Shown in pieces: positions 29,418 through 34,399 of a stretch of DNA of 64,000 nt. Within the stretch, counting starts at the first letter, position 1; the number at the start of each line of letters is the position of its first letter. Source of the stretch: Syncephalis plumigaleata (taxonomy: Eukaryota; Zoopagomycota; Zoopagomycetes; Zoopagales; Piptocephalidaceae); NCBI GenBank assembly GCA_025201365.1, contig JAIXMF010000003.1:868001-932000 (forward strand), written 5' to 3'. The notes below the pieces were generated by a model, which saw nothing but the letters and a program-made list of their open reading frames with translations, was not told the DNA's origin and made no database searches. Position numbers and translations under genes: made by a program.

Positions 29418-32400
29418 CTAGACTGCCTCTTCTCCAAAGCGTCGTATCTCTATTTTCATTCGTTAGTATATGTCTCACGTGTTATACCATCTCTATTCTG
29501 ACCTTTGCCTGAGCCTTGAATGGCTTCAGTTACATGCGCATCGTACCAGTCGCCCGTCTATCATTTTTGTTCGAGGAGTAAGATACAGTCTAGTGTACAC
29601 GAGCAATAGCTTACCTGGAGTGTACGCTTAGAGTGTTTGTTCTGCGAGAAGTACAGACGCAGTGCTCGCTCGCACACCATATTGCCTGCACTGGCTGCGG
29701 TATCCGATACATAAGCATCGCACACCTTGAGTAGGAAATGGATATCAAGCACAAACTGCTGTACACCAGCATAGCCAAAACGACGCGGTTCTTTATCCTT
29801 CTCCCAGAACGAGGCTACATACGCATTAGTTAGTTAGTTAGATATACGTTATTATATACACTATATGCTTTGCACACACCATCGCCTATGCCTCTAAAAA
29901 ACTCCTCGAGTACATTTGCCATCACTGCATCGAGTGCTAATGGATGACGACGAATCTCAAGTGCCATCTTGTGCAAGCCATGCACCAAATAACAAATCTC
30001 CTTGGTCGGCTTGCCAAATTGCTCATCAGGCTCCATCTGTCATAGACAATTGTCATCGGTTATCGATTCATGTCAATGTTAGTCATCGCTCTACTTGCCT
30101 GCGAGTAATCGATCGTTTCGAATGGATACACTTTGCGCAACAGAATAGACGCCTTCTTGACACAGAGCACCTCTTGCAGTGTGATGGGAATCCTGTCAAT
30201 TATTCATGAGTATTAATGGTAGCAACAACAGTCATTCCTCGTATTCGTACCTCCCAGTCGATTACGCAACGATTGCAGTTCTGGAGTGGGACGATGGAAC
30301 ATTTTCTATGTTATCGCACACCATCAGTAATCTAGCATACGAGCATGCTATTGCCAGTTGACTTCTTACCGAGATTTGATGATAATACGTGGTAGGAAAT
30401 ATTCCTGTACGAAGCCTGCATCTGCCAACACGCCAAAACGCTAATCGTACAGCATGCATTAATAGTTGCTATCTATGGAATACAAGGTATTTGCCATGCT
30501 ACCTGTTGATCGTCCAATTCCAATTCCTCACAAGTAGCCAGCATGTGTTTTAGGTATCGCTCTATGATGGATGAGATACTGCCAACAACCGTAGCGTAAA
30601 TCTGCATCCAATATGCCCACGTCAATGATGCTATACAGTGCATGCTCGTATCTACTCACTGGACCGATGAGAGTAGGTTCATGTCTCGCGAAAATTCATT
30701 AATCAGCTTGTATAGCTTGGCCGTACTCGTTGTCAATTGCACCGCAGTACCTACTCCATTTTAGCATGCCACTGTTACCATCGTTGTATTGCTCATCTAT
30801 CCTCATGCACTTACTGCCGTCAACTTCCACTCCCACCATGCGGAATCTATCCTCCAATAATGATTTGGCGAGTGTGTCGGTGCACACCTTTTCGTATACT
30901 TCAATGGCATCGCCCAGATTCTTCACTAGCAGCTGTTCGAGTAGGAAAGAGATATCCAGGCCAATCTCCCGCAACTATTACATATCAATGCGCATTACTA
31001 TCGGTGTAGGCGTGCACATTCATTATGCCGATCATTACCTTTGCACATTCAGTTAGTGCACATTTGATACACTCGGCAATAACATCAAACGGCTGCTGGT
31101 CAAAGAACACTTGTCGACGAAACTTTTCCGCAAAGAAATCCATCTCCTGCTGAACCCACTTCATAAATTCTATCCTCCACGTTCATTTATATATATACAC
31201 GCACGCGTTATTACTGCTATGCTGCATTCATCATCCATCATCCATCATTTACCTGATACAGTTGCCGTATCATGAAATAGCTGATTATACCAAGTGCAAC
31301 TATGCTTAATTAGCGTAAACAGCATCACAGTTAGATTCTTGGTATACAGCATGACATCGTTGGATGTGATCAATTGTCTAAATAGCAACATTAGTAGTAT
31401 CAGCATTGAATACTCGCATTATTCAAATGACAATGTTAACTTGCCGCGTTCTTTCGCGTATCAATGTTGTACGTGTAAATAAAAAGCTACTGCGTGCCTG
31501 CATATGCGCATTAGCCGTGGATTATACATATTCCTACTGCATATAATACCTTTTCATGATATCCAATCTTCAATAGCCAATGAATACGCTGCTGTAGTTG
31601 TTGGCGTGTCAATAGCGGATTCTTGAAATCATCACATATTGTTGCGCTTAATCGCTCACTTCTCTCCTTGATCTTGTCATTGATCGCGTCCAATTCCTTG
31701 CCTTCCTTCTCCCATATCAACAGGGTCTGCTGAGCTAGCACAACGGTCATTACACATGATAAACGAGCATCCACTATGCGTGCCTACCATTCTCGACACA
31801 TTCGACTGCATCGTCAAACTCGCGATGTGCAATGTAAACATCCAACTCGTCGGAGAGATCATTCATCCAGCGTATCTCTGCCGGTATATCGTCGCCTGTA
31901 TTTTCTCCATTCGATTTATCCCTCTAGGAACACATTCAGCTTAGCAGACGCGGCTATGTCATAGTATACGATTATCCCTCGCCTACCTTATCGGATGACT
32001 TGTCCTTGCGTTTTGCTCTACGATGTGCTGCAGTGCATTTAATACATTTACCCGTCGACTATTTCATGTATCCTTTCCGCTTACCTTCCACCGAGTAATC
32101 ACTCTCCTTGCCAAGTTCCTCGCCAATATCCTTGAGTTCAGTGATTGCATCACGTAGCATCAACATGTCACTTTCCAACTGTGTCTAACTGTGAGTCAAG
32201 TTCAATAACTGCCGTACTACTACTACTACTACTGTCTCATAGAGTATGCCACAATAAGGATATTGGTAATCTCCTTGGAAATCACTACAAATTGGCCATA
32301 ATTCCGAAATACCTGTTCGCGCAAGTCAGCTGTAGCCGCGTCTCTCGACTCCACCAGCTGTGCATAGTAGGTGCGCACTGTTTCTTCATCGGCATCTGCT

Positions 32401-32468
32401 AAATGCTCCAAACTATGCGGCACATGAGCTATGGTAGCAATGGCAGCTTTCAAGGCCGGTGTCGACAT
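29418..32468 (-). CDS. EXO84: Exocyst subunit EXO84
   Basis: Subunit of the exocyst, which tethers secretory vesicles to the plasma membrane. The start MSTPALKAAIATIAHVPHSL is at 32468. The Vps51/Exo84 N-terminal signature follows: REQVFRNYGQFVVISKEIT joining LESDMLMLRDAITELKDIG. Then a basic stretch (AKRKDKSSDK), and a segment DLSDELDVYIAHREFDDAVE of the kind that opens the Exo84 C-terminal helical domain. Later exons give LLTRQQLQQRIHWLLKIGYH, WVQQEMDFFAEKFRRQVFF, LREIGLDISFLLEQLLVKNL and FVLDIHFLLKVCDAYVSDTA, ending IEIRRFGEEAV with the stop at 29418-29420. At least ten exons. A PH domain is expected in the family but I did not recognise one. One intron (32181-32263) looks U12-type. Confidence 0.88.
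32181..32263 (-). other. Candidate U12-type AT-AC intron in EXO84
   Basis: On the minus strand the exon ends GAGATTACCA and the intron begins ATATCCTT, an exact match to the U12 donor. The 83-nt intron ends ...TTAGACAC, an AC terminus. A CTTGAC element (32200-32195) fits the U12 branch-site core YTTRAY, with its A 15 nt from the acceptor, as the minor class requires. Splicing joins ISKEIT-K-LESDML in frame, which is the expected Exo84 sequence. No GT donor nearby restores that junction. Confidence 0.8.
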
Positions 32469-33442: not shown

Positions 33443-34399
33443 GCAATTGCCGAGGCCAGAAAAACAAATCCTCAAGATGGCCAATACTTCGTGAATCACA
33501 TAGAGACATTCAAGACTGGTTTGCCATCTGCAACTGCAGAAACAGTCAAGAAGTATAGACCTAGTCTCTTGCCCAAAACAATCCCATTTATTAACTTTGG
33601 TCGATGCATGATTATGGAGTATGCTGGAGATATGTCATTGGATGAATACATTAAGACACTGAATGTCAACAATCGGGATCGTATTATCTACGATATAGCT
33701 ATTCAGCTTCTCAAAGGTGAGTCAATGACAATCATTGCTATTGCATATGTAATCTCTAACATTATTTGTATAGCCCATAGACTCCTCCATAAGAATCAGA
33801 TTATCTATAACAACATGAAATCTTCAGGTAAGTGCAGTATGGATATCATGACTTGCTAATTACTAATATCCATCATATTAGATATCATTGTAACGCGGGA
33901 TGCAAATAATAGTCCACATATCAAGCTTATTGACTTTGACACGAGTGTTATGTTCAAAGAAGGCAAGCACTTGTAGGAAAAATGAAGAATCAAAATTTGC
34001 GCAATTCACCACCAGAATACGCAAAGTATGGGTGGACTAGTATGCCAAAGGCTGACACTTGGTTTATTGGCGCAAGACTTTACCAGCTTATAACTGGTAA
34101 AAGCGTTACAGAAGATACTGTAGATATGTATGCAGAGGAATATGCTACTAGTAATCGTAATAGTTTTTTAGAGTTCTTGCAAGTTTTGTGAAGGATTTCA
34201 GTAACGGTTTACTTACTCCCCACCGGTTACAAAATACGGAAATGATGGTGGCGATGTTGCACCCTACCTAACTGATTTACTAAAGGTGCTCTTGACTCCT
34301 AAGGTGGCCGATCGACCAACACCAGAGGAGTATCTCAATAGACCAGCTGATATGCGACATCCTGCACAGATGCAGCTTGTAGTGCGCCCTCGTAATTAA
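33443..34399 (+). CDS. Kinase-fold protein with altered catalytic motifs
   Basis: A protein-kinase-like C-lobe split by short introns. The first visible exon opens after an AG at 33441-33442: AIAEARKTNPQDGQYFVNHI, then MIMEYAGDMSLDEYIKTL (hinge and helix D) and RIIYDIAIQLLKG (helix E). Across the next junctions it reads HLL-HKNQIIYNNMKSSDIIV, the place of the HRDxKxxN loop: the catalytic Asp position is Asn and the metal-binding Asn is Asp, while Lys is kept. IKLIDFDTSVMF stands where DFG belongs (DFD). PPEYAKYGWTSMPKADTWFI is the PE / DxWxxG block. The last exon has LLKVLLTPKVADRPTPEEYL, the subdomain XI Arg, ending VVRPRN. The N-lobe with its Gly loop and Lys is not found; it may lie in an unrecognised exon to the left. 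One or two frame slips near 33975 and 34185-34260. Activity is doubtful. Confidence 0.6.

Follow-up and report, generated by a model that had tools for sequence, protein, structure and literature searches.

The EXO84 locus and its predicted AT-AC intron

The window analysed here, a stretch of 64,000 nucleotides from Syncephalis plumigaleata, carries the exocyst gene EXO84 on its minus strand, in the first part of which the following features were placed (a slash marks a splice junction here and below):

32264..32468 (-): EXO84 exon 1, encoding MSTPALK...ISKEIT and the first base of a K codon; supported by homologues
32181..32263 (-): predicted U12-type AT-AC intron, 83 nt, phase 1; read directly, then recomputed
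32256..32263 (-): U12-type 5' splice site ATATCCTT, an exact match to [A/G]TATCCTT
32195..32200 (-): putative branch-site core CTTGAC; its presumed branch A, at 32196, is 15 nt upstream of the end of the intron
32181..32182 (-): AC acceptor, the sole listed end with which both the frame and LESDMLMLR are kept
32085..32180 (-): EXO84 exon 2, encoding the rest of the K codon and LESDMLMLRDAITELKDIGEELGKESDYSVE
32185..32312 (-): rival GT-AG intron, CAG/gtattt ... ttag/ACACAG, its position inferred by matching a deposited protein (P0001) to the DNA

Exon 1 ends in GAG ATT ACC A and exon 2 begins with AG TTG GAA AGT GAC ATG, and the intron between them opens with ATATCCTTATTG and closes with GAACTTGACTCACAGTTAGACAC, its last letters being GACAC; the predicted exon junction in the mRNA is thus ATTACCA/AGTTGGAAAG. 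The sequence-only reading of this DNA had proposed an AT-AC intron at 32181..32263 on the strength of its exact donor, CTTGAC core and AC acceptor, and each of these elements was found where it had been described. It had further claimed that splicing restores an Exo84 signature, and a scan of the nine AC or AG ends lying 5-42 nt past the branch A bears this out, in that the AC ending at 32181 is the only one to yield T-KLESDMLMLRDAITELKD, including KLESDMLML. Seven of the other eight candidates are out of frame, and the remaining one (42 nt, ending at 32154) is in frame but without LESDMLMLR.

The consensus for U12 branch sites is TTCCTTAAC, also given as TTCCTTRAC, with the A about 10-20 nt before the acceptor. 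Set beside the U12-type AT-AC introns of animals, plants and fungi, the EXO84 intron has the same ATATCCTT donor, a CTTRAC core near the acceptor, an AC end and phase 1; it differs in being short (83 nt) and in its branch core GAACTTGAC, which is weaker than the consensus, the upstream TTC being unmatched. Eight RTATCCTT sites occur in the 64-kb window, and a CTTRAY motif 25-140 nt downstream is found at the EXO84 site only. The full pattern (ATATCCTT, 20-90 nt, CTTRAC, 5-18 nt, AC) occurs once, compared with 0.065 times on average when the window was randomised 200 times under a first-order Markov model; taken alone this rarity is modest, and the weight of the intron call rests on where it lies in the coding sequence, on the protein relatives and on the snRNAs rather than on the rarity of the pattern.

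Thirteen other introns were placed in the EXO84 region, by eye and in a search for such borders, 11 of them GT-AG and 2 GC-AG. The GC-AG introns lie within EXO84 at window positions 31444-31378 and 30098-30037 (-), the second being less certain because the EXO84 reconstruction loses frame there; the last exons of the reconstruction, which are out of frame, were left out of use. Scans of the window with Rfam (gathering scores) and with ARAGORN gave no hits. Open frames resembling a protein-kinase-like gene (a likeness judged by eye) adjoin EXO84 at window positions 33443-34191 (+).

Conservation of EXO84 across the junction

With residues 1-457 of the spliced EXO84 as query, and scoring confined to the 7995 candidates that had most words in common with it, seven relatives were returned: two from S. 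plumigaleata itself (P0001 and P0004), one each from S. fuscata (P0002) and Thamnocephalis (P0003), two from Piptocephalis (P0005 and P0006), and P0007; none of the relatives found among these candidates is from Mucoromycota. Five were aligned, leaving out P0004, which starts after the junction, and P0007, which is distant (24% identity).

At the junction the deposited S. plumigaleata model P0001 reads REQTQLESD, with TQ instead of VFRNYGQFVVISKEITK, a conserved segment of 17 residues. This reading fits removal of the GT-AG intron 32312-32185 by the major spliceosome, which would join GAACAG/ACACAGTTGG, remove the VFRNYGQFVVISKEIT segment and leave the frame open, the ATATCCTT motif then lying inside the intron by chance. 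We consider it very improbable, as the VFRNYGQFVVISKEITK segment that it exchanges for TQ is present in S. fuscata, in Thamnocephalis and in both Piptocephalis proteins. The Pfam domain VPS51_Exo84_N also tells against it: this matches residues 22-86 of the AT-AC-spliced EXO84, across the junction, with 41.4 bits, and among the four deposited models scanned it matches P0002 (28.7 bits), P0003 (25.1 bits) and P0005 (46.0 bits), whereas the GT-AG-like P0001 gives no match at E<=0.001.

The models of the relatives also contain a feature that the GT-AG intron leaves unexplained in two other species, one of them of another genus. Both Piptocephalis proteins have a plain ISKEISKLET, reading ISKEISKLETEV, and LETEV continues directly. 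In S. fuscata the junction is VFRNYGQFVVISKEITNIL-LESDML (ISKEITNIL-LESDML), and in Thamnocephalis it is ISKEISNILCAALEDDM, the same N-I-L included. These three residues are as read-through of ACC-A/ATATCCTT would give (ACC A/AT ATC CTT, with the codons inferred), and because N-I-L fits such read-through the AT-AC donor looks conserved in S. fuscata and Thamnocephalis. The public EXO84 model of S. plumigaleata thus appears to cut the AT-AC intron wrongly, and those of S. fuscata and Thamnocephalis look distorted at the same junction. Relative to P0002, P0001 is also without the stretch STAKLYKLINEFSRDMN, which is found in the fragment model P0004, and without part of the C-terminal region.

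Minor spliceosome components in the genome

The sequence-only reading had predicted that genes for U11, U12, U4atac and U6atac would lie elsewhere in the genome. Two of the four, U11 and U6atac, score above their Rfam cut-offs, and candidates for the other two fall below the cut-off, with other evidence added:

C1:977157-977339 (L008): U6atac, 33.7 bits, cut-off 33, with AAAGGAGAGA
L133 1698-1501 (contig C329): U11, 53.7 bits, Rfam cut-off 39
L041 (contig C373) and L042 (contig C290): very probable U12 copies, 27.4 and 22.8 bits, both below the Rfam cut-off of 53
L010, C306:11623-11772: U4atac candidate, 20.1 bits, cut-off 53, E 4.83

U6atac spans 183 nt compared with 126 model positions; a TATATA lies near -30 and a T8 closes the gene. 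U11, which gave a shorter match of 35.7 bits in the first genome scan, has an insertion in its first hairpin region, about 70 nt long, that itself folds.

A search with the Rfam U12 model at the default limit found nothing, and the two copies emerged at a relaxed E<=10 (match E 0.0235). Both copies align with the model in place over the 5' region TTAATTAATGAGTAAGGATATAAC, and the one on C373 is preceded by TCCCATA and a TATA-like element; together with the Rfam matches these features make it very probable that the loci encode U12 snRNA. By eye, the CTTGAC branch core of EXO84 could pair with GUAAG of the C373 copy. The two copies differ little between the 5' end and a T-run some 255 nt downstream, well beyond the expected RNA end, and their 5' flanks are unrelated. 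A different route to U12, through an 18-mer with up to three mismatches, gave 55 matches compared with 103 for the reversed control and was dropped; none of the 30 loci fetched from those 55 has an Sm-type site at the right distance. The 18-mer AGAGTAATGAATATAACG has 11 exact copies listed genome-wide (e.g. L023, L027 and L031) and is probably a dispersed repeat. Two 150-nt loci, L006 (C24:402567-402716) and L007 (C99:6966-7115), were rejected as U12, as they keep the U2 branch-recognition stretch; they are U2-like without stem-loop IIa, and the 3' hairpin of L007 appears flipped relative to that of L006.

The score of the U4atac candidate is by itself at chance level, the same relaxed search having matched in 11 of 14 control genomes. 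Its first 35 nt, however, are predicted to pair with the U6atac of the same genome at -32.9 kcal/mol, compared with a shuffled mean of -19.6, and equally good pairing was reached by none of 500 shuffles and by 2 of 9138 35-mers from the window. It also carries a CAATTTTTGG Sm-type site. An 80-nt piece of the candidate paired with U6atac no better than shuffles (185/500), and a piece with 30 nt more upstream stood out in part (8/500 shuffles as good); an extended helix is not claimed. Another, unrelated-looking locus, L009, scored higher than L010 (22.4 bits), but was rejected as U4atac since no U6atac-complementary 5' end could be seen by eye.

Upstream of four of these matches we noticed, at first by eye, the heptamer TCCCATA, which lies at -66 of U6atac, -70 of U4atac, -75 of U11 and -55 of the C373 copy of U12; when 100-nt stretches were drawn at random in fours, only 2 of 20000 such quartets shared any 7-mer. 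That the four share the element supports the U4atac call, and on the combined evidence L010 is a probable U4atac snRNA gene. TCCCATA is absent upstream of the C290 copy of U12, and for that reason we suggest that this copy may be inactive. TCCCA is found at -62 of U2 and, with the TCCCATA of L008, L010, L133 and L041, has the look of a proximal promoter element of fungal snRNA genes.

Minor spliceosome proteins had likewise been predicted, and here the outcome was divided. With a human U11/U12-35K query, two exons matched on C1 outside the RRM (37.4 and 36.8 bits), although they were outscored by a general RRM protein (49.8 bits). The gene spliced by eye (L134) gave 165.3 bits (E 8.6e-48) to 8r7n_C, named U11/U12 35 kDa protein, the next structure chain being a U1A/U1-70K fusion at 97.4 bits; on this similarity the genome clearly appears to encode U11/U12-35K, and the deposited protein is P0012. 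Relatives among the matches listed come from S. fuscata, Thamnocephalis, Basidiobolus, Glomeromycota and Mucoromycota, and none from Piptocephalis is among the best 120 of 397 matches. Less certain is a U2AF35-family gene on C1, which with its exons joined gave 108 bits against human ZRSR2 versus 87 with the U2AF35-like gene on C351; in single stretches the order was reversed, the C351 gene giving 85.3 bits compared with 43.4 and 29 for two exons of the C1 gene. Among solved structures the C1 protein matches a U2AF 23 kDa subunit best, and an NCBIfam scan gave no help in naming it; we regard the gene, with some reserve, as ZRSR2-like and apart from that on C351. RNPC3 was not found with a 101-aa query in an exon-by-exon search of this intron-dense, short-exon genome, and nor was CENATAC (PF14968) in a search of the same kind. 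The contig pairs C84/C351, C91/C1 and C68/C191 matched the same queries almost equally well, as would be seen had two haplotypes been assembled apart.

AT-AC ends are not enough to assign an intron to a class, and the EXO84 intron could in principle be spliced by the major (U2) spliceosome, as are some AT-AC introns with U2-like signals. According to a pan-eukaryotic survey (PMC10639083), both spliceosomes are able to process introns whose ends are unusual. This reading nonetheless seems to us more improbable still than that of a GT-AG intron, given that the donor is the exact U12 motif, that a CTTRAC core lies 15 nt from the acceptor and that minor snRNA genes are present in the genome. That there is no intron here at all, the segment being translated or a pseudogene lesion, can be set aside as negligibly probable: the frame does run on for 11 residues beyond EIT (EITNILIVAYSMRQ), in favour of this reading, but it then meets a stop inside the segment, the downstream EXO84 exons are conserved, and Piptocephalis goes straight on with LETEV.

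The donor, the branch core, the open frame, the protein conserved across the junction and the snRNA-like genes, all of them observed here, agree with the U12-type class given in the sequence-only reading. We are therefore highly confident that EXO84 of S. plumigaleata contains a genuine U12-dependent AT-AC intron that would be removed by the minor spliceosome of the same genome, of which U11, U6atac and U11/U12-35K were found. If the snRNAs are expressed, splicing and its base-pairing steps would be expected to follow the known minor-spliceosome pathway: recognition of the donor (ATATCCTT) and of the branch core (CTTGAC) would fall to U11 and U12, U6atac, brought by U4atac, would then take over at the donor through its AAGGA stretch, and the branch A at 32196 would attack, the exons being joined at the AC ending at 32181 to give ISKEITKLESDML.

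Further probable minor introns and their place among fungi

The donor pattern RTATCCTTT occurs 938 times genome-wide, compared with 669 for the reversed pattern, an excess part of which may come from composition. One hundred of the 938 sites were listed, and the 90 loci fetched cover 94 of them. CCTTAAC lies 30-110 nt downstream of 9 of these 94 sites; among control 80-mers it is present in 7 of 2740 taken from these loci and in 5 of 1598 taken from the window (Fisher p 5.5e-9 for the latter comparison), and in stretches 20-220 nt from the donor site it was found nine times downstream and never upstream. A branch-like motif is present at 18 donor loci; homology tests covered eight of these, and five predicted junctions are backed by relatives:

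xanthine dehydrogenase: AT-AC; relatives ungapped through S/DLNGM
SMC3: AT-AC; relatives' support weaker because the junction is in coiled coil
NASP: AT-AC; relatives support the junction
CDC45: AT-AC; relatives support the junction; branch-acceptor distance 25 nt, which is long
ELP1: GT-AG; Pfam match begins 4 residues before the junction

At the other three loci (L076, L113 and L121) Pfam gave no support across the junction. A CDC45 search at E<=1e-30 returned four proteins, none of them named Syncephalis, which length and candidate limits may explain. A rough extrapolation would put the minor introns of the genome at around a hundred in order of magnitude, a figure in which duplicated contigs count twice.

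The intron had been taken to place the organism, and the fungus does belong to Zoopagomycota, order Zoopagales. According to the pan-eukaryotic survey (PMC10639083), minor introns in significant numbers had not been known from fungi until then, 205 such introns are present in Rhizophagus irregularis and 249 in Basidiobolus meristosporus, and the ancestral minor-intron density of Zoopagomycota was low; the name Syncephalis does not occur in the main text. Syncephalis resembles R. irregularis and B. meristosporus in being a non-Dikarya fungus with minor introns, minor snRNAs and apparently many such introns, although it differs from Basidiobolus, which has its own phylum Basidiobolomycota in the NCBI taxonomy. 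It is likewise similar to Rhizopus oryzae and Phycomyces blakesleeanus, early-diverging fungi for which about 4 and about 20 U12 introns respectively have been reported (PMC2846911, PMC10639083), in having both AT-AC and GT-AG U12 introns; against those numbers stand, beyond EXO84, five more homology-supported junctions in Syncephalis from 94 of the 938 donor sites. The snRNAs of the survey were called with Rfam models at E 0.01 (PMC10639083), a limit at which loci such as those of U12 (E 0.0235) and U4atac (E 4.83) might be missed.

The minor-intron class and its presence in fungi are already known from Rhizophagus and Basidiobolus; the open-licence literature searched gave no report of minor introns or a minor spliceosome in Syncephalis or Zoopagales, and as far as this search extends the Zoopagales case and the mis-modelled EXO84 are new. 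A wider proposal, which we offer as a serious possibility that we nevertheless incline slightly to doubt, is that the Zoopagales (Syncephalis and Thamnocephalis) keep at least of the order of a hundred minor introns, together with minor snRNAs that are enlarged and have a TCCCATA promoter element in common, and that gene models favouring GT-AG borders hide part of them, making the published low estimate for Zoopagomycota partly an artefact of annotation. A well-equipped member of the Zoopagales provides a data point on the retention and loss of the minor spliceosome across fungal evolution, and surveys that start from annotated introns may undercount minor introns, since the EXO84 model appears to lose 17 conserved residues on account of the AT-AC intron, and in two relatives the models look distorted there too.
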